A stretch of 64,000 bases of DNA from Nitrosospira lacus (lineage in GTDB: Bacteria; Pseudomonadota; Gammaproteobacteria; Burkholderiales; Nitrosomonadaceae). The stretch lies in contig NZ_CP021106.3 in assembly GCF_000355765.4 (NCBI RefSeq), positions 1,273,137 to 1,337,136 on the forward strand, in the 5' to 3' direction. Both the position numbers and the translations under genes were made by a program. Under the pieces are notes generated by a model that ran no database searches, had not been told where the DNA came from, and was given only the letters and a program-made list of their open reading frames with translations. Positions 21,745 through 39,519 of the stretch are shown here, piece after piece. Position 1 is the first letter of the stretch. Every line of letters starts with the position of its first letter.

Positions 21745-21784
21745 TTCACAAATTTATGACATTTTCTATGTTAATATTTTCACC
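21745..21784 (+). promoter_or_regulatory. TTCACAAATT element, copy C, upstream of the carbonic-anhydrase-like gene
   Basis: TTCACAAATT at 21745-21754 and a second TTCAC (TTTTCACC) 34 bp further on. TTCACA (21745-21750) with TATGTT (21767-21772) and a 16-bp spacer could also serve as -35/-10. The ATG of the downstream gene is at 21822, preceded by CGGAG. The same 10-mer recurs at 32722, 37202 and, inverted, at 39502. Confidence 0.55.
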
Positions 21785-21821
21785 TCTCACTTATCCATAT
21801 TAAACGATCGGAGTTCACAGA

Positions 21822-22940
21822 ATGTACACGAATGTTACCCGCCTACCCATCGAAAAGCGTATAGACTGGCTATTCAATCTTGCTGACCGTCACGGTGCGA
21901 CTTTCCGGAGTCCGGACGCCTGGTTGGCACGCGAGCGCTATCTCGCCGAACATCCCACCGCTATTGCTGTGCTGAAGTGTATGGACGGGCGTATTAATCT
22001 TTCCGTAATGACCAATACGCCAGCAGGCATTCTGATGCCGTTCCGTAATCTCGGGGGCGCATTCGATCTGGGCTGGCCGCATTTGGGCGAGGTGCTTGCC
22101 CATCATGTGCAGGGTTGGATAAGGTCCGGCCGACGGGTGCTGTTTCTTGTTACCTATCACTATTCCAAAGGCGATCCGCACCGCGGATGCGCCGGTTTCA
22201 ATTACGATACCGAGGCTGCATTTGCTCACACCAAGGTGATCCGGCGACAGATGGAACAGATCTTCGGCTTGGGGCATACGACCATTTACCCTCTTATCTG
22301 TGGTATTGAAACTGACGAGGATACGATAATCGTGCATGGCTCCACGGGTGAGAAACTCGATTTGTCGCAGCTCACGCCGGATGAGAGCGAAACCTTGGAG
22401 CCTCGTCTTGCCGCATTATTGCCTGATATGCCGCCACAAATGCGCGCCGACCTGTTACCACTGCTGCTCGGTAACCTGGAGAATATCGCGCGAGTACGCG
22501 AGCAAGCGCGGCGCCATGAACGGCAGCTGGAGATCGAGCACCGCGAGTGGATGATCTGCGTCGGCCGTGGCTTTGACTTTTTGCACACGCCCAATCAGGC
22601 TCTGATCATTGGTCCGTACAGCCCGAATCTCGACGTGCCTATCGGCAAGGCAGGCGGCATCATTCAGTCCAACATGCGCGGTGGGCGCATTCCCGATGAC
22701 GGATTCCTGCTTCTGGCGTCTGTTCCCTACATGGAAATTGGCATGGATCGGGCGCGTGCCGAGTTGAAATCTATTTTTCTGGCACGTTTCGCGGCGGAGG
22801 TGCTGCGCAACGAATTCCCGGCGCTTGCTGAAAAGATGTTCGTTCGCACTGCCGTACTTGACTGGCACTCGCGCACGCTCGAAACGGTAAACGACACTCT
22901 GCCTGAGAGCGATCGCAGCCAGATAGCCGCATCATTCTGA
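21822..22940 (+). CDS. Beta-carbonic-anhydrase-like protein (putative, CsoSCA-like motif)
   Basis: 372 aa, cytosolic, no signal peptide. I do not recognise the whole protein, but it carries a beta-class carbonic anhydrase metal site: Cys53-x-Asp55-x-Arg57 (LKCMDGRINL), a typical Cys/Asp/Arg triad, and His113 or His120 with Cys123 (TYHYSKGDPHRGC). HxxC is the classical beta-CA spacing; the more distant His also resembles the carboxysomal CsoSCA spacing. The remaining 240 residues include a helical segment (REQARRHERQLEIEHREWM) and a second compact domain, longer than ordinary beta-CAs (about 200-230 aa). It lies beside the DAB operon (convergent, 153 nt apart) and has a TTCACAAATT element upstream. 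Interconversion of CO2 and bicarbonate is the inferred role; enzymatic activity is not shown. Confidence 0.6.
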   Translation: MYTNVTRLPIEKRIDWLFNLADRHGATFRSPDAWLARERYLAEHPTAIAVLKCMDGRINLSVMTNTPAGILMPFRNLGGAFDLGWPHLGEVLAHHVQGWIRSGRRVLFLVTYHYSKGDPHRGCAGFNYDTEAAFAHTKVIRRQMEQIFGLGHTTIYPLICGIETDEDTIIVHGSTGEKLDLSQLTPDESETLEPRLAALLPDMPPQMRADLLPLLLGNLENIARVREQARRHERQLEIEHREWMICVGRGFDFLHTPNQALIIGPYSPNLDVPIGKAGGIIQSNMRGGRIPDDGFLLLASVPYMEIGMDRARAELKSIFLARFAAEVLRNEFPALAEKMFVRTAVLDWHSRTLETVNDTLPESDRSQIAASF

Positions 22941-23093
22941 TACTTCGGCGCTGTCTCCGCTATAGCATGATCGCTGTGGGTTGGTGTTTCATTCCGCGGT
23001 AGACAGCGAGCTGAGGGAATTTGGAATAACGGATTTCGTCAGCCGGACAGCGGCATTGTATGGTGTGCTTCGCGGAAAGATCGGCGAAGTCTT

Positions 23094-24593
23094 TTAATTG
23101 ATGAGCCGGTTTAGCCACGACTCAGCGGCAATTTTATTGATATCCAGCACGAAGTCAGGAAAAAATCCAAAGAACAATACCAATAATGCGGGGACGCATA
23201 GTAGTCCGAATTCACGAGTACGAAGATCCTGTATCTGATTTAACCTGGCATGAACAACCGGCCCAAAAAATGTCCGGCGCATAAAGGACAACATATACGC
23301 CGCGCCAAGAATAGCACCCAGCAATGCGGCAACCCCCAGGCCAGGATGTGCGTTTAGCGCGCCAACAATCAATAGCAGTTCTGCAGGGAAGCCGCTGGTG
23401 CCCGGTATGCCCATACTGGCTATGGCGAATAAAAAGAAGAAGGTAGTCAGACGGGGCATTACCCTTGCCAAGCCGCCTAGATGGATAACTTCCGTACTCC
23501 CGACGCGATGCTGGATAAAACCCGCAATCAATATCAGGCAACTCGCAATCACGGAAAAATTGAGCAATTGAAAGATGGCTCCCTGAATACCTTGCATGTT
23601 AAGCGTCGCAATACCCACTATCACCAAGCCAACATGACTGATACTGGCGTAAGCCAGCAGGCGGCGCAAGTTCGTCTGGTGCAGCGCAATCATCGCAGCA
23701 TAAATAAAAGTAATGGCACCAAAGATACCCAGTACCCAGGCGTATTCGACGGACGCATGGGGTGTCAATGGCATGGCAAAGCGCAGTATGCCAAATGCTC
23801 CCAGTTTCAGGCCGATCAATAACGCCGTCAGTTGTGTCGGCGCTTCCACGGCTGTAGTGGGCAACCAGGTATGGAACGGTACCAGCGGAGCCTTAACCGC
23901 AAATCCTGTAAGTAAGAGCAGAAAAATAATGACCTGCAAATCATCCGGTATGCGCGTGTTGAGCAGCACGGGAAAGCTGAACGATAAATCATGCGGAATA
24001 GCGCCCCCTGTTTGCATGGCATGATTGACCCCCAACATGATGAGGGCAAATAATATCGGCACGCCGCTGAATAACATATACAGCATGTATTTCATTGCCG
24101 CGCCACGCCGGTGCGGACCGATGCCCCACAAGCCGATCAGAAAGAAAATGGGGGGCAATATCAATTCCCAGAACAAGAAAAACAGCATCATATCCAGGGC
24201 TACAAATACACCCATGGTACCGCCCTCGATAGCCAGCAGCAGGGCAAAATGAAAACGAGGCAGGTGCTGTACCGAGTTCCATGAAGCAATAATGGCGACC
24301 AGGGTCAACAATGCCGACATTGGCAAGAAAAGTACGGATATACCATCGATGCCGATCAGGAATTCAATATTCAAGCTCGGTATCCAAGCGTGTCTTTCGA
24401 CCAATTGAAAATTATTGCCGTCGGTGGCATTAAACCAGTGAACCACAATTAGCGTGACAATCAACTCGAGGCCGGCAATGAATAATGCAACCTTTTTAGC
24501 TAAATTGATGTTCTGGATCGTGCCGGCCGCAATGGCGCCCAATAAGGGCAGCACAATGACAAGGCTTAATATCGGAATATTTGCTTCAATCAT
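23094..24593 (-). CDS. NuoM-like proton antiporter subunit, fifth gene of the DAB-type operon
   Basis: 499-aa polytopic membrane protein of the complex-I/Mrp antiporter family. The ATG at 24593 (MIEANIPILSL) overlaps the previous gene by 8 nt; the longer frame to 24659 lies inside that gene. The proton-path residues typical of NuoM are present: Glu in FFLFWELILPPIFFLIG, Lys in GFAVKAPLVPFHTWLP and Lys in LIGLKLGAFG. No other complex I genes are nearby, so it presumably works with DabA/DabB-like partners rather than in NADH dehydrogenase. Last gene of the minus-strand operon. Confidence 0.88.
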   Translation of the reverse strand: MIEANIPILSLVIVLPLLGAIAAGTIQNINLAKKVALFIAGLELIVTLIVVHWFNATDGNNFQLVERHAWIPSLNIEFLIGIDGISVLFLPMSALLTLVAIIASWNSVQHLPRFHFALLLAIEGGTMGVFVALDMMLFFLFWELILPPIFFLIGLWGIGPHRRGAAMKYMLYMLFSGVPILFALIMLGVNHAMQTGGAIPHDLSFSFPVLLNTRIPDDLQVIIFLLLLTGFAVKAPLVPFHTWLPTTAVEAPTQLTALLIGLKLGAFGILRFAMPLTPHASVEYAWVLGIFGAITFIYAAMIALHQTNLRRLLAYASISHVGLVIVGIATLNMQGIQGAIFQLLNFSVIASCLILIAGFIQHRVGSTEVIHLGGLARVMPRLTTFFFLFAIASMGIPGTSGFPAELLLIVGALNAHPGLGVAALLGAILGAAYMLSFMRRTFFGPVVHARLNQIQDLRTREFGLLCVPALLVLFFGFFPDFVLDINKIAAESWLNRLIN

Positions 24594-26169
24594 GCTTGAC
24601 GCTCCCCGCGGCGCTGCCGGCGGACTCAGCCGGGGCCTCATTAGAATGCTTTCCGCCATACTTGTGATAATACGCGCTCATTCCGGTCGGATCTCTTTCT
24701 ATATAATTTAGCCAAGGCTCCGTATTGAAACCGGTGCCGATAAGCAATGAGCAGATCGTTATGACAATAACGGGTTCCATTCTGACCATGTATTGGGTAT
24801 TTCTGAATGGCTGTATGGTGCGTTTTGAACTCGCCATGAATATCTGCTGAAAGGCCAGCAGCAGGAAGGCGGCCGCCAGCACATTCCCCACCAGAATAGC
24901 GATGGCGATCAACCAGCCATATTCATCTATGGTGCCTTCAATAAGCAGGTGAGCCGCATCAAATCCCGGTGTGCCGGGCATGACCATCGTGCTGAGCGCG
25001 GAAATGAAAAAAAGCAGCGCTATGCTGATGTTGGTATCAAAAAGACCGCCTAGACGTGGGGTAAACGCCGTATGGGTGCGCTCATAAACCAGACCGATAC
25101 TGAACAGCATGCCCGCTGACGCCAAGCCCCACGCCAGCGACAGAAATATGCCACCATTCAATCCATGCTCGTTGAAACAAAAGATTCCGATAACCAGCAT
25201 CCCTGCATGGCTGATGACAGAAAAGGCCAATAGCCGTCGAATATTGATTTGCATAAGTGCCAGCAGCGCGCCGTAAAAAATAGTGATCAGGCCTAGCGTG
25301 ACCACAAATCCTGCCCACTGTTCCGCCGCTTCCGTGACCAGCGGCAGGACGAAACGGGCAGTTGCATAGACGCCCAATTTCAGGCCCACCAGGAAAACAA
25401 CCGCGCTGGCCACGGTTCCCCGCTCCGCCAGTACCGGCAACCAGCCGTGAAATGGAAATAAAGGCATGCGTATGGCAAAGCCGCAAAACAGAAGAATAAA
25501 GATTAACGTTTCGTTTTGTAAAAGAGACTTATTCTGCTTCAGCGTCGACCAGTCGAAACTCAGAGGATGACCGGAATCCATTAATCCAAGGCCCAGCAAC
25601 AGGAAGCCGGCTAAGGTCATCAGCAACCCCCACCCCCAATACTGTAGCAGGTGGGTGATTACCCAACGCTTTCTTTGGCCCGTACCGCCATGGATCGTCA
25701 ATAAAATTACCGGTAGCAATTCCAGCAAGGTCCAAACCCAGAACTGGATAACATTCAATGCACAGAAGGACCCTATCAGGATAGTTTCATAGCCAAGCAG
25801 GTACGCCACGAATTTCCAGTCAACGGTTCGACGAGTAATTGCCTTATAAACCAGAACAAGGAATGCGATAATCGCCGTTAGAGAAATAAACAGGATATTC
25901 AGGCCATCAACGCCAACGCTGTAATAGGTAAAGTCGAAAAGGCGCTGCTGTTCGACCAGTTGAAGCCCGGCTTTTTCAGGATCAAACACGGACATCAGAT
26001 AAAAACTTAGAAGCAAACTGAATAATGTTCCGGCAAAGCCCAGGCTCATGGCGATGACTGTGGAACGTGAAAACAGGACAGCGCACATGGCCACCAAGGG
26101 AATAAGGGTCAGCGTGGTCAGCAGGGGGAACCCCACCGATTCCGACCAGAAAGTGATATCGGTAACCAT
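24586..26169 (-). CDS. NuoM/NuoN-like antiporter subunit, divergent
   Basis: 527-aa polytopic membrane protein. The ATG at 26169 has GAGG 5-6 nt upstream and lies 8 nt after the DabB-like stop; a longer frame to 26217 only reads back into that gene. It belongs to the proton-antiporter family (LLELLPVILLTIHGG and FPFHGWLPVLAERGTVAS), but the lysine of TM7 seen in relatives is replaced: FAIRMPLFPF has Arg where the sister subunits have Lys. The TM8 lysine (VGLKLGVYATAR) is kept. It is the most divergent of the four antiporter-like subunits of this operon and may have a changed role in proton transfer. Confidence 0.85.
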   Translation of the reverse strand: MVTDITFWSESVGFPLLTTLTLIPLVAMCAVLFSRSTVIAMSLGFAGTLFSLLLSFYLMSVFDPEKAGLQLVEQQRLFDFTYYSVGVDGLNILFISLTAIIAFLVLVYKAITRRTVDWKFVAYLLGYETILIGSFCALNVIQFWVWTLLELLPVILLTIHGGTGQRKRWVITHLLQYWGWGLLMTLAGFLLLGLGLMDSGHPLSFDWSTLKQNKSLLQNETLIFILLFCGFAIRMPLFPFHGWLPVLAERGTVASAVVFLVGLKLGVYATARFVLPLVTEAAEQWAGFVVTLGLITIFYGALLALMQINIRRLLAFSVISHAGMLVIGIFCFNEHGLNGGIFLSLAWGLASAGMLFSIGLVYERTHTAFTPRLGGLFDTNISIALLFFISALSTMVMPGTPGFDAAHLLIEGTIDEYGWLIAIAILVGNVLAAAFLLLAFQQIFMASSKRTIQPFRNTQYMVRMEPVIVITICSLLIGTGFNTEPWLNYIERDPTGMSAYYHKYGGKHSNEAPAESAGSAAGSVKHD

Positions 26170-26176
26170 CAGACCC

Positions 26177-27811
26177 TCATAACGCAACCAGCAATATGAC
26201 TGATACAAATAATGCAAGATAACCGGGGTTGAGCAGCAGCCGTTCGATCTTGTTGGCAGCTAATCCAAGTTGGCGGCCGTAGTTAATCAGATCTTCGCCA
26301 ACGCCTCGTATTACCAGCCGATCTTCGAACCAGTACAGGATTGCAGTGACCCAGCGGGTGAGATCCCCCGCAAACCCGCTACCTCGGGCAAAATCGCTTT
26401 CCTGACCCTCCTGCGGCATGGCGGTTTTCTGCTTTTCCAGCTGCGCCAGGCTACCGAAAACGCCCAATGAAGAGTACAAGGATTGCCGCATGGCAACCTT
26501 TCGCTTTTCCATCTGAGCCAAGGTAGATATTGTCCGGACTGAGGGGAGGGGAATTCCCATGGCACGATCAACGATATGATCATCAAAATAGGCCAGATCG
26601 TGGGCCAGTCCGCGTACCGGTTTTACTAACGCCCAATCGGTAATCTGATCCAGCCAGAAACGCTGTAAAGATGCCACATAAATCCAGCGCAAACTCGCGG
26701 TGTCAGGATTAACGGGCTTGATGGGATTGCCCACTATGTAATGCATGAGCGAGGGCGCGAGTAATACCTGATAACCGCGAACCACGGCATGGGCGCAGAG
26801 ATGCCAGCTCGCCAGTTGCCAGAAACCCAATCCGCATTCCAGAAACATCAGGCCCAGTTGCCCGGTTGTCGCGAAAAACAGCGAACTCTTGGCATCGGTC
26901 TGGGTTAACCCTACGATAAAACCATACGCAGCCGTCAGAAAACCTACGATGGCCACCAATGCCATGATCACGGGTGCTCGTTCAAAAATCGGTTGTAACA
27001 GAAGCATGAGATAAACGCCGGCATGCACCATGATCGCGCCATAAAATCCCGCACTGGATGGCGTGGGACCCTCCGCGGCGCGAGCCAACCATGGGGCAAA
27101 AGGTATCTGCGCTGATTTTGCGAATGCCGCCACGGCAAAACAAAGCGCAATGGAGCTTGCCTGTCCGCTGGTCAGCTGTGTCGACAAGGCATTGAGCTGG
27201 GACCAGTCGAGACCCTTGGCCCACGTATAGCTAAGTCCCATCCCCAGAATAAAACCGGCATCACCGATACGGTTGGTGACAAACACACGCGTCGCATTGA
27301 AGGCGGCCACAGGACGGTCATAGGCGTAGGCGATTAATAGATAAGAACAGAGTCCGGCGATCTCCCAGCCGATAAAGGTGCCTATCGCATTACCTGACAA
27401 CACCAGCAGCAACATTGCCGAAGCAAACAGGCTCAGGAGAAAAAAGAAGCGGTGAAAGCCTGCTTCTCTATGTAAGTAGTTGATGGAAAAACGGATTATG
27501 ATAAATAACAGAATGGAAAACAAGGCTGCCAGTATCACACTGAATCCGGTGGTGAGGAAAGTCACCCGAATATTCAAATTACCGCTCCCCAGCCATTGAC
27601 CAATACCGAAAGAGCCGATGTTTTTGCCCTGCAAATCAGCGCCCAGCAACATCAGGGCCAGCAGGCACGACAGTATGATGGCCCAACTGGCGATACGCGC
27701 CGTCATCGTTTCACTGGCTTCGCCAGTGAGCACACCCAACAGATGACCGATACCGATAACGGCAGCGGCGAGCAATGGGAGTAAGGGGATTAGAACAACC
27801 CAAGTATCCAT
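26177..27811 (-). CDS. dabB: DabB-like NuoL-type membrane subunit of the inorganic-carbon accumulation complex
   Basis: 544 aa, multiple membrane helices. NuoL-type motifs are visible: FIGWEIAGLCSYLLI, FVTNRIGDAGFILGM, and KSAQIPFAPWLARAAEG with its PTPSSAG continuation. In known DAB systems such a subunit anchors DabA and supplies proton-motive-force coupling. It directly follows dabA with 4 nt between, the pairing that defines DAB operons, and so is the best DabB candidate. The C-terminal 170 residues carry a soluble loop (LAQMEKRKVAMRQS and LAQLEKQKTAM, an imperfect internal repeat about 30 residues apart) before the last helices. No NADH-binding modules are present in the operon. Confidence 0.88.
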   Translation of the reverse strand: MDTWVVLIPLLPLLAAAVIGIGHLLGVLTGEASETMTARIASWAIILSCLLALMLLGADLQGKNIGSFGIGQWLGSGNLNIRVTFLTTGFSVILAALFSILLFIIIRFSINYLHREAGFHRFFFLLSLFASAMLLLVLSGNAIGTFIGWEIAGLCSYLLIAYAYDRPVAAFNATRVFVTNRIGDAGFILGMGLSYTWAKGLDWSQLNALSTQLTSGQASSIALCFAVAAFAKSAQIPFAPWLARAAEGPTPSSAGFYGAIMVHAGVYLMLLLQPIFERAPVIMALVAIVGFLTAAYGFIVGLTQTDAKSSLFFATTGQLGLMFLECGLGFWQLASWHLCAHAVVRGYQVLLAPSLMHYIVGNPIKPVNPDTASLRWIYVASLQRFWLDQITDWALVKPVRGLAHDLAYFDDHIVDRAMGIPLPSVRTISTLAQMEKRKVAMRQSLYSSLGVFGSLAQLEKQKTAMPQEGQESDFARGSGFAGDLTRWVTAILYWFEDRLVIRGVGEDLINYGRQLGLAANKIERLLLNPGYLALFVSVILLVAL

Positions 27812-27815
27812 GATG

Positions 27816-30800
27816 TCAAATTCCCAGTTCGGGCTGCCTTATGAAGGCGGGCGGTAACGGCAGGGTCTGATTCCGGTAATAGTCTGCTGATTTTTGAAAG
27901 ACCGGCAATTCTTTCGCTTCGGCTTGCCAGGGGATAAAGCCAATCCCGCGTTCAAAGATGAAAATTTCACCGCTATCAGGATCTTTAACGTTCAGATGCA
28001 CCCAGCCGCCCCCGATCAGTTCACGCAGGCTTTCCTGGCGACCATAAATTTGTTCCAGAACCGAAGTTTTTGCTTCGATCAGAACCTGCAAGCGCATCGC
28101 TTCATGAATTTCGATCATTTGCCTGGGTAGACCGGTACGCAAATCGCTGGACGCCCCTTCCATGACACCAAACATTCCCGCAACATTATGCGGAATCTTG
28201 GTCCCGCAACCCAGGCGTTCATTATTGACGGTGGAAAAATAATATTCCAGATTAATGCCGGCACCGACCGGGGTAGCAGCCAGCAGGATGCCTTCCAGAA
28301 TCTTTCCTTCCGGATCCTGCGCCGAATCATAAGAAATCAGAAACACACGCCGATCCAGGAATAGGCCGCGTGTAAATGACCTGCGCCCCACTGCTGCCCA
28401 GGCAACGGTGGCATGCCCCAGTTCCGGCCGTGCCTGGGAAAAATCAGTAGCGCGTTCCTGGATATGCTTCAGAGCTTGCTCCGGCGTAGGATTACGCGGG
28501 GCGGACGCCAATCGGCGGCAGCGTTCGTGCGCGGACATATACTGCGCACGGCGCAGTTCCTGCTGTATCTTTTTCAATGCACCGAGCCGTTCCGCGGGGA
28601 TATCGTCAAGGTCATACCAGATAATATCCTCATTGCAGGTATTGTGTTCGGTGCCAATAAACCAAGTGTCGTCCGGAATACCGATACCACGCTCGGCGAG
28701 CAACTTGCGTATTTGCGGGCGATTGGCCATCGCCGCGAATAGTCTTGCATTCGGCCCCCCGTGACGACCGCTGCAAGCTCCGCAATCGTAAGCGGCCAGG
28801 TGTGGATTGTTCTGACTGATGGAGCCGTGGGCAGACACGAGCACTAATTCCGCGAAGCCATAAGTCAAGCCAATATTGCGTAATAAACCGGCGATACGGT
28901 CAGCCTGTTCCTTATCGGTAAATCCCAGCCTGGGGTGTTCCGGCGTCGCGGCAACCGTCGTATCATCCGTTGATGTAAACATCAGTTCTGTGTCGACGGC
29001 GGGTGCGACAAACCGGCGGACACCCGCCACAAGTTTCTGCTGGGGTTTAGGGAATAGTGATTTGGCCAGCAATCCAAGAAATGTTACCGGCGCGATTGCA
29101 TCAATAAGCGGATGTGATGACACCAGGTTGCGGCGTAGACTCTGATGCAGCAGATTGGCGGTTCGACGGACCCATTTGCGGCCAGTGTTATGCTGGATCA
29201 AGGCGTGCTCAGTTCCCGCTCTAGGTATTTCCCGTACCTCATTGGCCGGTGTTACCACGATGGGACATAGCGGTGTCACTGCGGTATCGTCCAGACCTTT
29301 GTAATTTATGGGCAGGCCAAAAAAACCCGGCGCCCCAAACGTTTCAACGGCAGGATTGAGTTCTTCCAGATGCCTGCGGAAACTTTCTTCGCGATCGTCA
29401 AAGCAGAAAATAACTTGTGACTCGGGACGTGTATCGCGTTTCGCCCATCGGCCCTGATTGTGGTTTGCTTGTATCGCCCGGAAAATGTCGTCACGATAAT
29501 GGCGTTCATAAGCGTACAGCCAGACTTTGCAACGTTCCACCTCGGAAAATTGATCCAGCAGCATCAACATTTCCAGCAAGTCTGCTTTTGGCAGCTCCTG
29601 TATAAAGGAAGCGTTCAATCCCAAGTGCTGGCATAAACGGAACAATCGCCAGCCGCTGCTATAAATCGTATGCTTCTTGCCTCGCCGCTCAGCCAGCGGA
29701 CTGAACTGCCAAGTCTGGATCAGGTCGGCAAGCTGCTGCCAAACCGCACGTTCATGCCGTTCCGAAACAGCAAGCATGGTCAGGGATTCTACCCGTTGGG
29801 TCAGATACTCCGGTAACTCTCCCTTATACAGTTGCCTGCGCGCCATGAATTCGGATAGATTCTTATGAAAATAGGTCTGCAAGCTGCTCAATTTGGCTTC
29901 GATCCGCCAATTTTCCTGACAGACCTGATTTAACCAGAGCCGATCCAGTGTCAACCGGATTGCCAGGTAATCGGCGAGGTTCGGTTTGGCATCGTTCGCT
30001 GTATGATAATCTGGATGGTGCTGACGCCAGTTGATCAAGCCTGACCAGCCAGGCAGCTCAAGCGACAATCGGCGCAGATACCCTTCCCATTTTGTGCGCG
30101 GTATCTCAAGCTGCGATAGTTGCAGAATAATCGTGTCCACCGCATCCATGGGGAGTTGCGCGACTATCTGCCGCCAATCAGGTAACTCTTGCAGAAATGG
30201 ATTGGCATCATACTGGGCAGTTGCCCGCCACGCGGCATAAAGTCCCAACCTGCTGCGCTCAGGTATCTGCCATGCCGCGATACCTTCATCCATGGCGGAA
30301 GCGCAGATGCGGATCAATTGCGGCCGAACGGAATCGAGAATATCGATCCCGCTCAACTCCATGATAAAACCGCGCAAGGTAATGCTATCGCCCAGTTGGT
30401 CCAGTAAATCATCCAGGACCTTGCCTGCCTGGCGCTGCATTTGCTCATGAATCGATGCCCCGTTTCCCTCATAAACGTGTTCAAGCCATTCTTCAGCCTG
30501 TTCCATTGACAAATCCAGCAGATTCTCCGGATGCAGCCCGGCATGCTCCATTTCGAGCTTCGTCAAGATGCTCTCCCAGAGTTGCCTGATGACGTTATCC
30601 GGATAGGTACTATCGGCAAGCAATTGCTTGCGGGCCTGTTCAGAGACGTCGGTTTGCACGGTATCCAAGGCTTGCAATTCTTCTATCTGCCAAGTCAGCT
30701 CGCTGACGCTTAATGGTTGCAGGTCGAATAACAATGCAATGCGATAGAGGTCTTTACGCCGGACGACTTTATCTTTCACCGTGCAGATGATCGTATCCGC

Positions 30801-31100: not shown

Positions 31101-31102
31101 CG

Positions 31103-32720: not shown

Positions 32721-32760
32721 ATTCACAAATTAATCACACTTACAAAATGTTTTCTTCACA
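32721..32760 (+). promoter_or_regulatory. TTCACAAATT element, copy A (conserved 40-bp block)
   Basis: The block begins ATTCACAAATTAATC and ends TTTTCTTCACA. Without gaps, 31 of 40 bases equal those of block B at 37201-37240, including the last 10. Two TTCACA copies are 33 bp apart, about three helical turns. TATGTTA follows 5 bp after the block. It lies 143 nt upstream of the DAB operon and about 310 nt upstream of the sbtA operon. Confidence 0.6.
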
Positions 32761-33069
32761 GCGGGTATGTTAATTTCCTTTCAAAACGTAATTCGCATCC
32801 TTTATAACGAAACTGGCCCCTTCATAAAATTACTTATTTGGTTAATATTCAAATAGTTACATTGACTATATTTAAACTAGTGGCTTGTAATTGAGATTTA
32901 ATTCGGAGATTGATTTTCATTAAACTCCAGAAGCTGGAAGAAACCCGTCAGCTTAATGGATGGAGAAGTTTAAAAGAATTTACATAAAAATGATATATGC
33001 AAGCTGGGTTTTACAGTGCGTTAATTCTGCTTGTGTTCCAGAAATTCTCATTTGCCTGCGGAGGATTGT

Positions 33070-33264
33070 ATGACGGTAATATATTTGGAAGATGTAAAAA
33101 GGGCGCGCGCCGAGATCGAAGCGGCAAACAATGTCACCGCCGTCAAGGAGGTAGAAGACGGATGGAAGATTGAGACCAAAACGATTAAAAAATTCATTCC
33201 CGGCTTTCTCTATGAGGGGGTCGAGCAGGTGGTGAGACATCTTTGCCGCAACAATAATAAATAG
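33070..33264 (+). CDS. Small protein of unknown function leading the sbtA operon
   Basis: 64 aa, MTVIYLEDVKRARAEIEAAN at the start, with GGAGG 6 nt before the ATG, a very good ribosome site. It has a charged, mixed helix/strand pattern (AVKEVEDGWKIETKTIKKFI) and no membrane segment or signal peptide. I do not recognise it. It lies on the same strand as sbtA, 149 nt ahead, and is probably co-transcribed. A regulatory or accessory role for the transporter is a guess. Confidence 0.6.
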   Translation: MTVIYLEDVKRARAEIEAANNVTAVKEVEDGWKIETKTIKKFIPGFLYEGVEQVVRHLCRNNNK

Positions 33265-33304
33265 GGTACGTCACGTAAAAGCTCATTCTGAAGGAGATAG
33301 AGTA

Positions 33305-33409
33305 ATGAAACGCCATAAGAGGTCGAAGCAATATAAGGGATGCTGCAACACGGCGCTGGGAAAATCGCGCGAATCGATACCACAATCAATAATGACAATA
33401 GGAGGATGA
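33305..33409 (+). CDS. 34-aa basic peptide between the small ORF and sbtA
   Basis: ATG at 33305 with AAGGAGATAG just upstream, an excellent ribosome site, and stop TGA at 33407-33409, 4 nt before the sbtA start. It encodes MKRHKRSKQYKGCCNTALGK and 14 more residues ending MTIGG. It is rich in Lys/Arg with a Cys-Cys pair. The stop overlaps the sbtA ribosome site (AGGAGG), so its translation could feed ribosomes to sbtA. It may be a leader peptide rather than a functional protein. Confidence 0.45.
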   Translation: MKRHKRSKQYKGCCNTALGKSRESIPQSIMTIGG

Positions 33410-33413
33410 CGCA

Positions 33414-34364
33414 ATGGCGACCATACAACCAGTAGTGCTATTCTTCATCTTGGGGGTTTTAGCCGGCGTGCTGAAATCCGACCTCAAGATCCCCGAGGCT
33501 TTATATAAAAGCCTTAGCATCTTCCTGTTGATCGCCATCGGTTTCAAGGGTGGGGTGTCGATGGCCAAGTACGAGATCATGGAGGTGCTGCCCATCGCCC
33601 TGTCGATGGTTGTGCTCGCGGCGCTGATACCACTGACGGCCTATCCCATATTGAAGAAGCTGGGGAAATTCAATCAGGCCGATTCCGGCGCTATTGCGGC
33701 CCACTACGGTTCGGTGAGCGCGGTGACCTTTGCGGTTGGCATTGCCTTCCTGGATGGTATCAAGGAAACGTCCGAAGGTTACATGGTCCTGATCATGGCG
33801 TTGATGGAGATACCGGCGCTGGTGACCGGCACCATCCTCGCGCGGCGTGGCGCTGGGGGCTCTACCCAGTGGGGCAAGCTGATGCATGAGATCCTGACTG
33901 GGACAAGTATTTTTCTGATGGTTGGCGGGGTCATCGTCGGCTACTACGCTGGAATGGTAAAACTTGTCTCGCCGCTGGATAAGATGTTCATGGACCTGTT
34001 CATGGGCGTGCTGGCCTTGTTCCTGCTGGAAATGGGCTTGCTGGCATCAGCGCGGTTATCGGCAATCAGGGCAAAAGGGCCGTTCCTGCTCGCATTCGGC
34101 ATACTATTCCCATTAACGGCCGGGTTCTTTGGCGCATTCCTGGGCGCTTTATTCAGTTTATCCCTGGGTGGCACCATGATGCTCGCTGTGCTGTACGCCA
34201 GTTGTTCCTACATTGCGGCTCCCGCAGCCATGCGCATCGCGGTGCCGGAAGCGGATCCAGCAGTGTCGATCGGCGCTTCTCTGGGGGTGACCTTCCCGTT
34301 CAACATATTCGTCGGAGTGCCGATCTACTTTGAAATGGCGAAATTTTTCAAAGCAATGTTTTAA
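33414..34364 (+). CDS. sbtA: Sodium-dependent bicarbonate transporter SbtA
   Basis: 316-aa inner-membrane protein of about ten helices. SbtA/DUF897 motifs are present: SDLKIPEALYKSLSIFLLIA, GFKGG, AIAAHYGSVSAVTFAVG and ASCSYIAAPAAMRIAVPEAD. In cyanobacteria it imports HCO3- with Na+ at high affinity. An AGGAGG ribosome site lies 8 nt upstream. It is followed by an SbtB-like PII protein, the standard pairing, and forms part of the carbon-uptake island. Length is shorter than the cyanobacterial protein (about 370 aa) because the central cytoplasmic loop is shorter, as in other proteobacterial forms. Confidence 0.94.
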   Translation: MATIQPVVLFFILGVLAGVLKSDLKIPEALYKSLSIFLLIAIGFKGGVSMAKYEIMEVLPIALSMVVLAALIPLTAYPILKKLGKFNQADSGAIAAHYGSVSAVTFAVGIAFLDGIKETSEGYMVLIMALMEIPALVTGTILARRGAGGSTQWGKLMHEILTGTSIFLMVGGVIVGYYAGMVKLVSPLDKMFMDLFMGVLALFLLEMGLLASARLSAIRAKGPFLLAFGILFPLTAGFFGAFLGALFSLSLGGTMMLAVLYASCSYIAAPAAMRIAVPEADPAVSIGASLGVTFPFNIFVGVPIYFEMAKFFKAMF

Positions 34365-34396
34365 AGCATCGGCATAATCAGCGCAAAAAACTATGG

Positions 34397-34454
34397 ACGT
34401 ACTATCATTACGGAAAAGGCATTAGAAAAGCACTTGTCCGGGGGGATAGTACGT
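34397..34454. repeat. 10-bp perfect inverted repeat between sbtA and sbtB
   Basis: ACGTACTATC at 34397-34406 and GATAGTACGT at 34445-34454, with a 38-nt loop. There is no T-run after it, so it is not a simple terminator. It could form an RNA stem that sets the sbtA/sbtB ratio, or be an operator. Confidence 0.6.
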
Positions 34455-34524
34455 TTCGGTAGCAGGTTATATCAATACCGGGTGGCGCGGTTACACGACA
34501 CTCTTCACTTTCTAGGAGGAAACA

Positions 34525-34842
34525 ATGAATGCCACGATAGCTATGAAACGGTTGGAGATCGTAATTGATGAGGAAAAGCTCGAAGACCTGATAGCCTTAT
34601 TGAATGAGGTCGGCGTGCGGGGCTATACATTCCTCAGGCAAGCTAGTGGGCTTGGCTCGCGTGGTACACGGCGCCCTGACGATATTTTTTTCGAACAAAC
34701 CAACGCCATGATGATTCTCGCCTGCGAAGAAAAGCAGGCGGAGAGACTTGTTACGACACTTCGCCCGAGGTTAAAGGAGTTTGGTGGGATGTGTCTGATT
34801 TCGGATTGCGCATGGGTGATAGGACCCGCAGTTTCATACTGA
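34525..34842 (+). CDS. sbtB: SbtB-like PII-superfamily regulator of SbtA
   Basis: 105-aa cytosolic trimer-type protein with the ferredoxin-like PII fold (MKRLEIVIDEEKLEDLIALL, RGYTFLRQASGLGSRG). In cyanobacteria SbtB binds adenine nucleotides and gates SbtA. AGGAGG precedes the ATG at good spacing. It follows sbtA with a 160-nt spacer containing an inverted repeat. The C-terminal redox R-loop (CGPxGC) of cyanobacterial SbtB is absent; the protein ends CAWVIGPAVSY. It therefore probably lacks the thioredoxin-type control described for the cyanobacterial protein. Confidence 0.85.
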   Translation: MNATIAMKRLEIVIDEEKLEDLIALLNEVGVRGYTFLRQASGLGSRGTRRPDDIFFEQTNAMMILACEEKQAERLVTTLRPRLKEFGGMCLISDCAWVIGPAVSY

Positions 34843-34963
34843 TCCGTTCATCAAACTTGAGACGTTTCGCATGGGTAAAGTAAGCCAGAAACTGTTGCCT
34901 CTTGTTACCACGGCATGACTGTTTTTTTGCATGGTTATGGTTCCAATAACTCAAGGGGTGGTC

Positions 34964-35557: not shown

Positions 35558-35890
35558 ACGTTAGTGTTTCTGATAGTAACAGACCCTACGTCTGAAAACT
35601 TGGCCGGACACGTTCATTCTTCCAACTGTTCAGCCAATTTGGTGATCCTTGTTGGCAAGTCCCGGGTCACATTCGCAATGTGAAAGCTCTCGGATATGGC
35701 GACCAACGGCAGGACCACAGGGGCGCAGTTAACACTCTGTCAATAAGCCGCACATTATGCAGCGTCATGTTTGACAGAGCGTCGAGTGATCGGAAGCATT
35801 TGTTTGATCAAAAGAGACGGAGTCACTGGGACGACGGTTTTCCAAGGTCCATTCTGTAGATTTTACTTATTCACCTGATATGAGTATGCA
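35558..35890. other. 333-nt region after cytochrome P460, possible remnant
   Basis: No intact gene. On the minus strand from about 35731 down to 35614 a short frame reads VVLPLVAISESFHIANVTRD and ends ITKLAEQLEE before a stop. This looks protein-like but has no clear start, so it may be the tail of a lost gene. The 9-bp inverted repeat at 35735-35779 abuts this fragment. Confidence 0.4.
35735..35779. repeat. 9-bp inverted repeat near a transposase remnant
   Basis: CTCTGTCAA at 35735-35743 and TTGACAGAG at 35771-35779, perfect arms with a 27-nt loop. Located 112 nt before the IS630-like fragment. It could be an old insertion end or an operator; no T-run is present. Confidence 0.4.
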
Positions 35891-36382
35891 ATGGCGAGAC
35901 CTGTGACGGGACGTGAATTTGTGAAGGCAGCGAAGGAAAAAATCGTGGCGGCTAAAACGGTTGACGCCCTGCGTGCGGCGCAGGCCTTGCTTCTTCCGCT
36001 GGAGTTCGGACTATCGCTGGAACAGACGGCCACCGTCATTGGGCTCTCCAAGAGCCGGACAGGAAAACTACGGACGCGGTTTCAGCGTATCGAGCTGGGT
36101 GTCGAACAGGTTAAAACAAAAAAAGGGCTTCGTAATCATGCACGAATGAGCCTGGATGAAGAAATAAAATTCCTTACTCCTTTCATTATTGAGGCACAAG
36201 ATACTGGCACCCTGCATATTCCACAATTAAAAGCGGAGCTTGAACGATGCGTGGGCAGATCGGTGTCGACGTCGACGGTTTATCAATTACTCAGACGCCA
36301 CGGTTGGTCAAAACTTGCACAGCATCCGAGAACCGATATGGAAGTGATGCAGGCATGGAAAAGAATGAGTTCAAAAAAATAG
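35891..36382 (+). pseudogene. IS630-family transposase N-terminal fragment (helix-turn-helix only)
   Basis: 163 aa. The first half (ALLLPLEFGLSLEQTATVIG, LSKSRTGKLRTRF) is the helix-turn-helix of IS630/Tc1-like transposases, and the second half (VSTSTVYQLLRRHGWSKLAQ, TDMEVMQAWKRM) is the winged-helix that normally runs into the DDE catalytic domain. Here the frame stops at the point where that domain should begin, and no DDE remnant is visible in the next 1.1 kb. It may be a transposon relic or a domesticated DNA-binding protein. The frame is intact and starts with ATG, so expression is possible. Confidence 0.7.
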
Positions 36383-37560
36383 ACATCACACCAGAAAAGC
36401 ATCGTCAATGAGCTGCATGTTTCCGGGACCTTCCAATTCCCTTTTGTACATTCGCTAGCTGAATCGTTATTCATGCAACTCACCTAACCGGAACCTCTTT
36501 CCGGTTTTCATCTCGCGTAATAAGAAATAGCTTTGGGTCAAATCCCAAGAAGCGGGCGGTGTTCGCCCGCATGAGAAAATCTTCCCTGTTTGCGCCGTCG
36601 CTACAATCTTCATGTATACAAAACACAGCCAATCGGTTATGCAGCTTCTTGGTAAGCCCTAAACGTATCTTGAGCGCGTTACTTTCGGAAATCCATACAT
36701 TCGATAACCGCTTGACTCCATGTAGGTATGTGTTTCCTCCCCGGTAGGTTCTTCAGTACCAGCGGCAAAATCTTGCCTCTGCACATGCGTTTTCGCCAAG
36801 CAGAGAGTTCGAAACCGGGATATTCCGCTGTACAGGCGCTGTTTCACTAGGGTTTGCGTACTGAAGTTTCCCGTTGACCGCTGGATGATCGACCACTGGC
36901 TTGGTGCAAGCTGTACAAATCCACCCGACGAACGAGCTCGTCGTTAGTCCGCGCTCAGTGAAATATCCGCACTAGCCTCATCTGATTCTGGGTTAACCAT
37001 AACGATGTAAAACTAAACATCACAAATAGAAAATTCGTGGATTTTAATTGATCAGCTATGTGAGTCTGATCCCTTCCGACGAAGCATGAAAATATATCGG
37101 TAACTATTTGATAAATAATATTAATAAATAACTAGCCGCCTGATTCCTTAGTATGTGTCTCTGATATGAGTAGTAACTTTACCTGCACGAATTCCCGATA
37201 CTTCACAAATTCTTTACAAATACAGAACGGTTTCTTCACAGATGTAGTGATATGTTAGCGTCGTGTTTAAGGTATTCACGAAGCGCAGCAATTTAATATA
37301 GCGTTTACGGTGAAGACGGCTTGCATAAGCGGTCATGCGAAACACTATCGGATGGGGTAGCGGATGTGTTTTCGAAGGGGTTGGAGTTACCGGAGGAGCG
37401 GGCGGCCATATCTACTTATGAGTTATATAGATCAGCCGCTTATTTATCCGCACGGGCTGCAGGCGTTAAGCAAGATGACAGAACCAGGCTCCGTGGCGGT
37501 TTATTCTTTTTGTATGTAAATCTTTTTGATAGTTAAATTTTTTTAAAAAGGATGGGTATT
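36383..37560. other. 1.2-kb gene-free region before the SulP transporter
   Basis: No supported gene in the first 800 nt, where only short frames occur on both strands. A 71-codon frame from a TTG at 37321 to 37536 has no ribosome site or known relatives that I recognise. The right part is AT-rich and contains block B (37201-37240). The region probably combines decayed mobile DNA on the left with a long regulatory leader for the SulP gene on the right. Confidence 0.55.
37201..37240 (+). promoter_or_regulatory. TTCACAAATT element, copy B (conserved 40-bp block)
   Basis: Begins CTTCACAAATTCTTTAC and ends GGTTTCTTCACA. It matches block A (32721-32760) at 31 of 40 positions without gaps; the two TTCACA copies are again 33 bp apart, and TATGTTA follows at 37251. 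It lies about 320 nt upstream of the SulP start. Confidence 0.6.
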
Positions 37561-38916
37561 ATGAGTTCATATACTTCAGAAAAACCGCTTGTGCCATCGG
37601 ACGATCACCAGTCCGGCGGGACACGGGAATCGGTTACTCCCGTGGGATCAGCAGGATTTCAGGCCAAATACGTTGCCCGCGATATCCAGGCGGGCATCAT
37701 AACCGGGGCGATGGCAATTCCCCTGTCCGTCGGTATCGCCTTGATGTCCGAGTACCCAATCAAGGTTGCTCTGGCAACAGTTGCATTTGCCTGTTTCATC
37801 GGCTGGATCAATGCCTTCATCAGGCCAGGCAACTATATCGGCGCGCCCGGCGTCGCAGCGGGCCTGGCGCCGGTCCTGGCGATGGGGGTTCACAGCTTTG
37901 GCATCGAAAACATGGCGTTCGTTATTTTCCTGACATCCGCCATGCAAGCGCTGATATGGAAATATGACTGGCAGAAATATATTCTGCTGGCGGTACCGAG
38001 CTACCTCGTCGAAGGACTGCTGGCGGGGGTTGGCTTGAAGATCGCCCTCAAGTTCCTGACATTTACCTATGAGCTGCCCGCAGATCAGGAGGCGGCGGAT
38101 GCCTTCTGGAACGGGGCACGCATACAAATGGCGCTCATCTCGCTGGCCGGTTTCGCGACGTTCGTGTATCTGTTCTCGAAATTCAAGGACACGAAACCCG
38201 CCATTCCTTACTTTCTCCTCATCGGGGCAAGCATCGTACTGGCGCAATTCATGCCCATGTCCATGCTGCACGTGGATGATGTGGATCTCGCCCTGGCCTT
38301 GCCGGTACCTCACTTCGACAGCGCATTGACCTGGATGTATGTGATTGGTTTTGCAGCCATGCTGGCGGTGATCGACGTGATCGAACAGGTCATGAGCAAT
38401 GCCGCCATCGAGAAGATCGATCCGCTGAAACGCAAATGCAACACCAACAACAGCCTGCTGGCTATCTGGATAGCCAATATGGGTTCCAGCTTCTTTGGCG
38501 GCATGACCAATCTGGACGGCCTGGCAAAGAGCACCACCAATAAGCTGGCTGGTGCCATGACCAAGTTTTCCGTCTTCATTATCGGCATCGTGGTCACCTT
38601 CTTTGTCATGAATTCCCAGTATCTCGAGTTTCTTCCCAAGTTTTCGCTGGCGGCGATCATGATATTTTCCGGGTGGAAAATGATCATGGGGTTGTGGCAC
38701 GTCGCGCATTACGGACAATATGCCATGATACTTGCCACCCTTTGCGGATTGCTGGTCTACAAGGTGGGAATTTTCGAAGGCTTGCTGATCGCCATGGCGG
38801 TACATGGCCTGGTCAATTACCTGGTTTTCAAGCAAGCTGGCAAAATACCGAGCAAGGTTATTGTCAAAAAGTATTTTGAGAAATTCTCGGCCAACGCAAA
38901 TGGCGGTGCTGACTGA
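37561..38916 (+). CDS. SulP-family anion transporter, probable bicarbonate importer
   Basis: 451-aa membrane protein of the SLC26/SulP family (IQAGIITGAMAIPLSVGIAL, NYIGAPGVAAGLAPVLAMG, TNNSLLAIWIANMGSSFFGG). There is no C-terminal STAS domain, unlike classical SulP sulfate transporters and cyanobacterial BicA. The ATG at 37561 has AAGGA about 10 nt upstream; the ATG at 37552 sits too close to that site. Neighbouring genes and the shared upstream element suggest bicarbonate as substrate. Sulfate or another anion is possible. uspA follows 85 nt downstream. Confidence 0.85.
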   Translation: MSSYTSEKPLVPSDDHQSGGTRESVTPVGSAGFQAKYVARDIQAGIITGAMAIPLSVGIALMSEYPIKVALATVAFACFIGWINAFIRPGNYIGAPGVAAGLAPVLAMGVHSFGIENMAFVIFLTSAMQALIWKYDWQKYILLAVPSYLVEGLLAGVGLKIALKFLTFTYELPADQEAADAFWNGARIQMALISLAGFATFVYLFSKFKDTKPAIPYFLLIGASIVLAQFMPMSMLHVDDVDLALALPVPHFDSALTWMYVIGFAAMLAVIDVIEQVMSNAAIEKIDPLKRKCNTNNSLLAIWIANMGSSFFGGMTNLDGLAKSTTNKLAGAMTKFSVFIIGIVVTFFVMNSQYLEFLPKFSLAAIMIFSGWKMIMGLWHVAHYGQYAMILATLCGLLVYKVGIFEGLLIAMAVHGLVNYLVFKQAGKIPSKVIVKKYFEKFSANANGGAD

Positions 38917-38939
38917 TTGATAGTTTTCTGGAAGTGTAC

Positions 38940-38961
38940 GGCGGGCGGAGAAGTGCCCGCC
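38940..38961 (+). other. Stem-loop between the SulP gene and uspA
   Basis: GGCGGGC and GCCCGCC form a perfect 7-bp GC stem around an 8-nt loop. No T-run follows, so it is more likely an RNA-stabilising or processing hairpin between two co-transcribed genes than a full terminator. Confidence 0.6.
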
Positions 38962-39001
38962 ATCCAGTTTACAGATTTATTCTTTATCAAGAGGAGTTTA
39001 C

Positions 39002-39430
39002 ATGTACAAGAAAATCATGGTGGCTATCAACGATGACAAAACATCGCAAATTGCTTTGCAGGAGGCTCTGCATATTGCTACCACCGATAGCGCCAAACTA
39101 TGCATCGTTCATGCTGTAGCGGAATCCTCCAGTGATGTCGACGACCATGATAACACTGGCCGGCAAAGCGGCGTAGGTCTGCTGGAGAGCGCTAAGTCCA
39201 CTGCAGGTAATGCAATCTCGGTGGAAACGCGTCTATTGGCGGCAGATGGCGAATATGGTCTGAACGGTGTTTCAGAAGCCATCGCCAATGCCGTCACGGA
39301 GTGGGGAGCCGATCTGCTTGTGGTAGGAACGAAGGGTCGCCGGGGCTTGGAACGCCTGGTTATTGGTTCGGTAGCCGGGCAACTGGTGAATACCGTAGAC
39401 ACTTCAATTTTATTGGTTCGGGCGCACTAA
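39002..39430 (+). CDS. Universal stress protein (UspA family)
   Basis: 142-aa cytosolic protein, ATP-binding type: MYKKIMVAINDDKTS at the N-terminus with the conserved Asp, and GTKGRRGLERLVIGSVAG carrying the G-x2-G-x9-G-S nucleotide motif. AGAGGAG lies 6 nt before the ATG. It follows the SulP transporter on the same strand, separated by a GC hairpin. USP proteins next to SulP or bicarbonate transporters are common and are thought to modulate transport by sensing nucleotides (inference). Confidence 0.92.
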   Translation: MYKKIMVAINDDKTSQIALQEALHIATTDSAKLCIVHAVAESSSDVDDHDNTGRQSGVGLLESAKSTAGNAISVETRLLAADGEYGLNGVSEAIANAVTEWGADLLVVGTKGRRGLERLVIGSVAGQLVNTVDTSILLVRAH

Positions 39431-39464
39431 AAATTCAGGGTACTGCAAAAAAATTTAATAAAGA

Positions 39465-39519
39465 TGTGAAAAATATGTGTATAAAGTGTAAAAAACTTGT
39501 GAATTTGTGAAAAATATGT
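39465..39519 (-). repeat. TGTGAAAAATATGT direct repeats with an inverted TTCACAAATT element (copy D)
   Basis: TGTGAAAAATATGT occurs at 39465-39478 and at 39506-39519, 41 bp apart (about four helical turns). Between and overlapping them, AATTTGTGAA at 39502-39511 is the reverse complement of TTCACAAATT. The region separates uspA from the small membrane protein at 39589, and would be in that gene's promoter. Confidence 0.55.

Follow-up and report, generated by a model that had tools for sequence, protein, structure and literature searches.

What factor reads the ten-base word TTCACAAATT, copies of which stand before genes for inorganic-carbon (Ci) uptake in the ammonia oxidizer Nitrosospira lacus? 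The question is raised by a 64,000-nucleotide stretch of its genome (NZ_CP021106.3, positions 1,273,137 to 1,337,136 of the forward strand), called the window here and numbered from its first base. A sequence-only reading of this DNA had proposed that the word marks the regulatory regions of a CO2/bicarbonate-uptake regulon, and this central claim is well supported by the comparisons described below. The accompanying guess at the factor, a LysR protein of the CbbR/CcmR type, did not hold up, and the overall interpretation is partly supported. The likely factor is instead the response regulator (RR) and sensor histidine kinase (HK) pair encoded directly upstream of the first site; the 10-mer would serve as the upstream half-site in the promoter box of an RR of the OmpR/PhoB family with ColR-like DNA specificity. 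To our knowledge, the sensing and adjustment of Ci supply in ammonia-oxidizing bacteria has been little studied. Among the papers listed by searches of the open-access literature, judged by title and abstract opening and with the subscription literature outside this scope, there was none on a two-component regulator of Ci supply in these bacteria, and the main text of a 2024 review of inorganic-carbon toolkits (PMC10880623) contains neither 'two-component' nor 'CbbR'.

The element and its promoter register

The 10-mer is the start of a longer promoter, in which 11-bp direct repeats (TTCACAAATTn, then nTCACAnnnnn) form two or four units and are followed by TGnTAnnnT. The long elements align without gaps as TTCACAAATTn, nTCACAnnTnC, a weaker third unit and TTCACAnnnnn, with T[AG]TGnTAATTT next at sbtA. 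A strict 22-mer search over 125 genomes of the family, run with a reversed-order control, returned 19 sites, against none in the control. The sites are spread over 10 of the 125 genomes, every one of them from the 23 that represent the genus of the window. Bases 22-38 lay outside the search pattern; six of these columns (25, 29, 33, 34, 36 and 37) are identical in 15/15 sites and most of the others are biased. The 15-site set omits, from the 19, the carbonic anhydrase (CA) site of the window and three duplicates contributed by a near-identical genome.

The promoter register is equally constant. Among the 31 genus sites from which profile R1 was built, TGnTAnnnT, the sigma70 extended -10 feature at a fixed distance from the presumed activator site, is present at offset +46 in 25, and TG occurs there in 30. 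At other offsets between 30 and 51 the same pattern is matched once at 41 and four times at 51. The -10 columns played no role in finding the sites, as the matrix ends at +38. Five of the six sites that depart from TGnTAnnnT at +46 read TGGCAATCT and one reads GATTATATT. Most sbtA promoters have TGnTAATTT and most sulP promoters TGnTATGTT, both 7 bp past the TTCACA of the last unit, and no -35 hexamer at 17 bp was noticed in the element promoters. A position weight matrix found 50 sites with a score of at least 16 in the 783,474 bases of fetched loci and none in the reversed control (training sites included). The spacing of the units can also be counted directly. In 45 gaps between the kinase and the next gene, TT[CG]AC pairs occur 11 bp apart 21 times, 22 bp apart 3 times and 33 bp apart 8 times, against mononucleotide-shuffle expectations of 0.065 at 11 bp and 0.08 at 33 bp; the gaps include related genomes and are not independent. 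Head-to-tail sites at 10-11 bp are an OmpR/PhoB-family trait, with which this spacing agrees and by which the sites would be assigned to such a regulator.

In the window, element 1 (21745-21777, forward strand) is the short form, with two units, TTCACAAATTT / ATGACATTTTC, followed directly by the extended -10 TGTTAATAT. It lies 15 bp past the HK stop and 44 bp before the gene for a CsoSCA-like CA (21822-22940, forward; PF20686 at E 4e-7, and TIGR02701 at E 8e-12, below cut-off), and it is the sole match to core plus -10 in the window, where mononucleotide shuffles predict 0.04. Element 2 (32722-32776, forward) has four units, TTCACAAATTA / ATCACACTTAC / AAAATGTTTTC / TTCACAGCGGG, then TG-T-TAATTT. 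It is directed at the operon of sbtA (33414-34364, forward; Na+-dependent bicarbonate transporter, PF05982 at E 3e-110), divergent from dab (144 bp), and is the best R1 match (E 2e-15; a training site). The DAB-type operon (23094-32578, reverse) encodes DabA (27816-31100; PF10070 at E 8e-248) and four antiporter-like subunits, and PF00361 was found in both of the subunits scanned. Element 3 (37202-37256, forward), also with four units, TTCACAAATTC / TTTACAAATAC / AGAACGGTTTC / TTCACAGATGT, then TG-A-TATGTT, is upstream of a gene for a SulP-family transporter, a putative bicarbonate transporter (37552-38916, forward; PF00916); its R1 match has E 8e-14 and is likewise a training site.

These arrays give a register to features noticed earlier. 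A second TTCAC had been placed 33-34 bp after the word; it is found at 32722 and 37202 (+33), and the one at 21745 (+34) lies out of register beyond the putative -10 and is probably irrelevant. TATGTTA is indeed close by in all three, with starting offsets of +44, +49 and +22 relative to the word, a discrepancy that vanishes when the -10 is read as TGnTAnnnT. The copy inverted at 39502-39511 is real, and is part of two four-unit arrays rather than a lone word.

Two conventional interpretations of the repeats were dropped. TCACA is a CRP half-site, and a CRP-like palindrome was considered, but the units are direct and not inverted. A classical -35/-10 promoter with TTCACA as the -35 would leave a gap of 10 bp to the -10. 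A two-unit model, R2, was used only as support, as it gives many weak matches. The density of elements can be unusual: in G115 (L124:15352-16415) five lie within about 1.1 kb between divergent DAB and sbtA genes.

Copies of the word in the window and genome

The word had been placed at 21745, 32722 and 37202, and inverted at 39502-39511 and 35916-35925, and all five coordinates are correct. A sixth exact copy in the 64-kb window, at 18833-18842 on the forward strand, was missed; it lies inside the hemE frame (18450-19517), has no array and is probably due to chance. The chance expectation of about 0.1 copies was too low, since 100 dinucleotide shuffles give 0.25, with 2 as the largest count. 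The whole genome, one contig of 3,261,088 bases, has 14 exact copies, 6 of them in the window (binomial P 1.5e-7; P 6.5e-5 for 4 of 12, without the two in-frame copies), and six copies in 64 kb are a strong cluster. A one-mismatch search of the window found 8 copies where 5.5 are expected, which is no excess; it is thus the exact word and its extension that matter, not loose relatives.

Of the eight copies outside the window, five are in long reading frames (L001, L011-L014). The intergenic ones include one without an array (L002) and one with a weak array (L004; R1 E 4e-4). The third (L003), at 751533, extends as TTCACAAATTGGTCACATTTACAAAATCTTTCCTTCACAGGGGGTATGTTAATTT immediately before a second SbtA-like gene, some 550 kb away from the island. 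Such a copy outside the island is a first indication that the 10-mer is part of a real regulon.

The adjacent regulator and kinase

The RR (19791-20474, forward) contains the Response_reg (PF00072) and Trans_reg_C (PF00486) domains, both above the Pfam gathering score, and so belongs to the OmpR/PhoB family; its open frame begins at 19641 and homology at about 19791. It is the proposed DNA-binding factor. Its best NCBIfam match is TIGR02154 (PhoB), at 167.7 bits against a cut-off of 296.2, and it is not PhoB proper; indeed, all of the best 25 of 98 NCBIfam matches for the RR, and of the best 25 of 78 for the HK, are below cut-off. Relatives of solved structure include BasR/PmrA (8jo2 and 4s04 among the best), RpaA, RegX3 and KdpE. 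A second RR copy, 82% identical, occurs in G104 (L259, C10:40867) with an element upstream, possibly reflecting autoregulation or a duplicated circuit.

The partner HK (20434-21729, forward; HisKA and HATPase_c by Pfam and NCBIfam) has a short periplasmic domain of about 95 residues. The stretch before its second transmembrane helix contains HxxR, with His and Arg invariant in 20 orthologues and the motif present in 9/11 distant homologues. An ExxE of the ColS type was not found in this stretch, the position being taken from the description of ColS. The AlphaFold model of the HK is poor, with a mean pLDDT of 53.6 and values of about 68-86 for residues 31-110, and Foldseek gave, among the 50 matches listed, kinase cores, light-sensing kinases and similar proteins. 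Its relatives in named records come from Nitrosospira and Nitrosovibrio, at 86-99% identity, and from Nitrosomonas, at 65-68%; one further match is weak and unrelated. In G112 (L139) the end of the HK gene is partly duplicated downstream (50 residues, 78% identical), and each copy of the kinase end is followed by a TTCAC-TGnTA box.

Conservation in the genus

The HK is found in 22/23 genus genomes, the other 21 copies being 86-99% identical to that of the window. Of these 22, 21 have the order hemE-RR-HK, and the remaining one, G108, is represented by a 4-kb contig that begins within the RR. The next gene of known type is a Ci gene in 22/22 (CA, sbtA, sulP or dabA), preceded in some loci by a small ORF and in L139 by the kinase fragment. 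Beyond this module, denoted X, rsgA follows in 16/22 loci, where the fetched stretch showed it. Within the hemE-rsgA interval the Ci module is swapped between non-orthologous types (L131-L140 compared with L120-L130) and the RR and HK stay; the types are SbtA/SulP with or without DAB, a second kind of DAB (DAB2) plus a distant SulP, and SulP-Usp-DAB-CA. The DAB2 type is that of nine genomes without sbtA, whose DabA is 34-35% identical to that of the window (PF10070 in the one scanned). Their kinase-dabA gap reads TTCACGAATTC TTCACAnnnnn TnTGnTAAnTT in 9/9. In L137, where sulP is next, three successive TTCAC units are spaced at 11 bp. The same regulator thus faces one type of box ahead of modules that are not orthologous, an arrangement with no easy explanation unless the RR-HK pair and the box belong together.

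Conservation of the element at orthologous loci of relatives, suggested earlier as a check on the word, is found before 21/21 sbtA and 12/12 island sulP genes in the genus, and in sister genera as well. R1 matches were counted here within 1 kb upstream of a gene, and most of those at sbtA and sulP are training sites. The SbtA proteins differ considerably, 14 of the 21 being only 41-44% identical to that of the window. For close SulP genes the R1 match is present in 12/25, namely all 12 in the island or beside the kinase, and in 0/13 of the paralogues elsewhere in the genus (76-88% identical). Nine of these paralogue loci (L150-L158) have no matrix score of at least 10 except one of 14.5 in L153, where the weak box adjoins another two-component system. 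It is very probable that the RR-HK pair at 19791-21729 works with these sites.

Sister genera

Tests outside the training set used R1, which was built from the 31 sites of the window's genus only, with duplicates from near-identical genomes, weak or tandem extra copies and the inverted arrays near universal stress protein (usp) genes left out. Over the 125 family genomes, at E<=1e-3, matches were found in 23/23 genomes of this genus, in 8/9 of a small-genome sister genus (g4), in 25/85 of another (g3) and in 0/8 of g2. From the matching kinase identities, g3 is presumably Nitrosomonas. The small g4 genomes may be those of the streamlined lake lineage of PMC9239080, described there as having only 5-8 two-component systems.

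In g4 the strongest matches (E<1e-11, seven genomes) are between the kinase and sbtA/sulP in 7/7. Five of the six strongest g3 matches are before an alpha-CA gene (G013), dabA2 (G012, G021), the gene for a DUF2490 protein (G071) and sbtA (G087), the last between the kinase and sbtA; one further G071 match is before none of these genes. Viewed from the kinase, seven of eight g3 neighbourhoods have a Ci gene next (dabA2 in one, sbtA in five, sulP in one). Six of the seven match the full box, and L331 (sulP) has an 11-bp pair with the -10 one base closer. The eighth locus, L334, has neither a Ci gene nor the repeats. For about 40 genomes (23 from the window's genus, 8 from g4 and 10 from g3) the regulator, its 33-57-bp operators and its targets are predicted to the level of single bases.

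A second conserved site occurs in g4 (L312, L314, L316, L317, L320, L327) before an unidentified gene pair. It reads TTCACGAATTC, then TnnACAA..., GCGACACTTTC and TTCAC, and the gene pair is followed by a distant histidine kinase match in 5/6 loci.

Membership of the predicted regulon

At E<=1e-5, R1 finds 84 sites in the genus, of which 77 are in fetched loci and seven (G097, G098, G105) are outside the tally. The target class is that of the first downstream gene, named against a small reference set, with lipid-A genes possible among the unidentified ones. Ci genes account for SbtA (19, plus the sbtA operon of the window), SulP (11) and alpha-CA (7). Envelope targets are a DUF2490 outer-membrane protein (9), a 133-aa membrane protein (8), a BBP2 porin (3) and a 530-aa outer-membrane-like protein (3). 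The rest are the second RR copy (1), an MBL-fold protein (1), divergent genes (3) and none of the references (11). Two of these 11 were reassigned by eye, G115:C22:505196 to sbtA (then confirmed) and L238 to alpha-CA; with these and one site in the dab-sbtA gap, Ci genes represent 41/77 sites. R1 training sites make up 31 of the 77, 29 of them before sbtA or sulP. The 46 non-training sites comprise 12 before Ci genes (8 alpha-CA), 13 before outer-membrane proteins, 8 before the 133-aa protein and 13 before other or unidentified genes. Weaker R1 matches add alpha-CA, BBP2 and porin loci.

The carbon label comes from the sbtA, sulP, dab, CsoSCA-like CA and alpha-CA promoters taken together, and the model also reaches a sizeable envelope set. 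The element is not equally common before unrelated genes, a frequency on which the proposed regulon had been made to depend, although its target set is wider than carbon. That the regulon is one of carbon acquisition is, on these gene classes, a probable reading. No element was found at either RuBisCO locus of this genome, flanks of about 1.5 kb included: the best score is -8.5, and T[CG]AC pairs at 11 bp are missing. A LysR gene (L370:3028-3927) adjoins one of the two loci.

Identification of some targets depends on single members: alpha-CA by PF00194 (E 2e-35) and BBP2 by PF07642 (E 9e-91), one of each scanned. Neither the 133-aa nor the 530-aa protein is matched by Pfam. In eight genomes (L221, L225, L229, L235, L242, L244, L249, L254) a conserved element accompanies a membrane protein of about 124-141 aa, likewise without a Pfam match and a candidate new component of the regulon. 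The element thereby gives a shared context to uncharacterised genes, among them those for the 133-aa membrane protein, the DUF2490 and BBP2 outer-membrane proteins and a PEP-CTERM alpha-carbonic anhydrase.

Likeness to known systems

The ColR consensus of Pseudomonas is (T/C)(T/C)NA(C/G)NN(T/C)TTTTT(C/G)AC (PMC2689224), and T[CG]AC pairs 11 bp apart are present in 7/7 of the DNase-footprinted Pseudomonas putida ColR sites of Table 1 of that paper, which suggests that the element here works like a ColR box. The two systems share the 11-bp T[CG]AC direct repeat, an OmpR-type regulator and many membrane-protein targets; the ColR target PP0900 is of the PAP2 family, and a PAP2 gene lies beside a distant homologue of the pair (L336). 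In contrast to the ColR box, the spacer between the first two units here is mostly AAATTn or GAATTC, with no T-tract, although some third units are T-rich. Most of the long sites are four-unit arrays, and the targets include carbon transporters and carbonic anhydrases. ColS has an ExxE metal motif next to its second transmembrane helix (PMC8306577), and the HK reads HxxR at the position so described. Because of the missing T-tract between the first two units and HxxR in place of ExxE, the pair is not called ColRS.

The Pho box is the other obvious comparison. PhoB contacts two 11-bp direct repeats with a CTGTCAT core (PMC2648988). Like these, the units here are head-to-tail at 11 bp, upstream of a -10 without a -35, and PhoB is the best NCBIfam match of the RR, below cut-off. 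The spacing from the PhoB box to the -10 served as the reference for the layout of the element. The half-site differs (TTCACA instead of CTGTCAT), as does the extended -10 TGnTAnnnT, and no phosphate genes were noticed among the identified targets. With BasR/PmrA the RR shares domain architecture. PmrA controls lipid A, a function that matches the neighbours of some distant homologues, and the PmrA box probably differs in sequence from the element here.

The nearest homologues beyond the Nitrosomonadaceae are distant, with RRs that are 49-74% identical. After their kinases, 11-bp T[CG]AC repeats are found in L336, L343 and L344, and by eye in L340, L341 and L346; L337, L338, L339, L342, L345 and L347 have no clear repeat there. 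The neighbours are a PAP2 phosphatase (L336), glycosyltransferase and ArnT-like genes (L340, L341; ArnT by eye), an EptA-like gene (L346), a periplasmic binding protein (L343) and SulP (L344). Lipid-A or envelope genes were not seen beside the pair in the examined Nitrosomonadaceae loci. The repeats and envelope-gene neighbours of the distant homologues suggest that an envelope-type system changed its target set in ammonia oxidizers.

Proposed mechanism and competing explanations

From the repeats, their register and conservation, synteny and gene classes, all of which can be read in the DNA, we infer binding by the RR, activation of the promoters and a carbon signal (or a linked change in pH or bicarbonate). 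The phosphorylated RR would bind head-to-tail 11-bp repeats, TTCACAAATTn and nTCACAnnnnn; a single dimer would occupy the CA and DAB2 promoters, and two would occupy those of sbtA and sulP. The unit closest to the promoter would lie just upstream of the extended -10 TGnTAnnnT, where in place of a -35 the RR would recruit sigma70 RNA polymerase as PhoB does; activation rather than repression is suggested by this position of the box. The predicted regulon includes SbtA, DAB, SulP, carbonic anhydrases and outer-membrane proteins, with the RuBisCO of this genome excluded. There is good reason to think that an envelope-type, ColR-like two-component system has been recruited to activate Ci acquisition in ammonia oxidizers. 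If so, nitrifiers would be predicted to tune their carbon supply through a common switch before bicarbonate and CO2 uptake genes, with the regulator kept in place while the adjoining transporters are swapped.

What the kinase senses is less certain, and carbon limitation, pH/alkalinity or metals are possible stimuli. That bicarbonate or CO2 acts directly is a tentative proposal with somewhat less than an even chance. A fuller scenario, slightly more speculative still, is that an envelope-stress system of the ColRS/PmrAB kind was captured early in the Nitrosomonadaceae as a master switch of Ci acquisition. The kinase would sense periplasmic bicarbonate/CO2, or linked alkalinity, through its HxxR domain; the RR would coordinate transport, periplasmic hydration and outer-membrane permeability; RuBisCO would be left to LysR; and the locus hemE-RR-HK-X would be fixed while module X is exchanged.

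Several points weigh against this interpretation. Predicted binding, expression and phosphorylation all come from sequence data. At 36/77 sites, and at 34/46 of the non-training ones, the gene that follows has no known carbon role or is unidentified. G106, an assembly of about 260 contigs, has elements without the orthologous kinase, and in G075 (L334) the RR-HK pair adjoins neither a Ci gene nor repeats. With 10-30 kinase matches in each genus genome, the box could be read by a paralogue; in L153 a weak box lies next to a paralogous RR-HK. For the inverted arrays near usp there is no fitting promoter on the strand that carries them. The g3 evidence at the level of single matches comes from the six strongest, out of 25 genomes with matches; R2 matches are weak, so that short boxes are not confidently callable genome-wide; and related genomes are non-independent samples.

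Among the alternatives, the strongest keeps the same RR and boxes and makes the kinase an envelope, metal or acid-stress sensor (ColRS/PmrAB-like) that responds to pH, metal or surface stress rather than carbon, the carbon genes being targets because the medium turns acid and loses bicarbonate as ammonia is oxidized. This is unlikely, if by no means negligible. It fits the PAP2, glycosyltransferase, ArnT-like and EptA-like genes that adjoin distant homologues with 11-bp TCAC repeats, the metal response of ColRS (PMC4074579), and the 13 outer-membrane-protein and eight 133-aa-protein promoters among the 46 non-training sites. It has more difficulty with the Ci module beside the pair in 22/22 genus genomes, 7/8 fetched g3 loci and 7/7 g4 loci, and with a kinase that, where ExxE is described for ColS, has HxxR instead. 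That a different RR, or another factor encoded elsewhere, reads the boxes and that the adjacent pair is linked to them by history only is improbable. The many paralogous two-component systems in each genome, the G106 sites and the L153 paralogue would be in its favour, but the pair and boxes stay together across the exchange of DAB/SbtA for DAB2 and across three genera, and the second RR copy of G104 (L259) has its own upstream element.

The LysR-type regulator of the original guess (CbbR/CcmR) is a very remote candidate. LysR sites have a T-N11-A inverted pattern. The element consists of tandem direct repeats at 11 bp, with a geometry like that of the PhoB box, and a PhoB/OmpR-type pair is encoded directly upstream of the first site. 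CbbR does regulate cbb operons in other autotrophs (PMC6458275, which concerns CbbR and SulP in Acidithiobacillus), and this genome has a LysR gene beside RuBisCO (L370), but it is there that the element is missing, as it is from the other RuBisCO locus, and no LysR protein was found among the scanned island genes. What CbbR/CcmR control shares with the present system is the inorganic-carbon theme only; protein family, site geometry, target set and the lack of an element at RuBisCO set them apart. That the repeats cluster by chance in AT-rich intergenic DNA, or derive as copies from a duplicated or mobile segment, has a negligible probability. Intergenic regions are AT-rich and one-mismatch copies are not in excess, but the reversed control gave 0 against 50 sites over 783 kb, and the element is conserved in other genera. 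Identity also drops at its borders: the six elements of this genome have a mean pairwise identity of 66% inside the element and 25-33% in the flanks, which indicates that the promoters were not simply carried as copies of a larger segment.

Other features of the island

The remaining genes of the sbtA operon begin with a small ORF of 64 aa (33070-33267, forward), which has no Pfam match and precedes sbtA. A P-II-like, SbtB-like protein (34525-34842, forward; PF00543) is encoded downstream of sbtA. The next frame (35891-36382, forward; HTH_33/HTH_23) had been called IS630-like and its internal inverted copy of the word (35916-35925) a probable chance occurrence. The copy does lie inside this helix-turn-helix frame and is a chance one, and the frame itself is not an insertion-sequence remnant; it resembles a domesticated helix-turn-helix protein within the sbtA operon. 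The sbtA-PII clusters of 17 fetched loci contain homologues that are 68-92% identical, and the paralogous sbtA loci L145, L146, L147, L148 and L159 are among these loci.

Beyond sulP, a universal stress protein gene (39002-39430, forward; PF00582) is followed by element 4 (39460-39544, reverse), two successive four-unit arrays that start at 39544 and 39503, with no -10 downstream on their own strand. Such pairs, with copies 41 bp apart, also occur in the relatives L120, L125, L126, L130, L142 and L149. After element 4, a small membrane-protein-like ORF of 68 aa (39589-39795, forward; no Pfam match) is a possible target, which the element may control from the other side. In L237 a similar small gene has an array divergent to it.

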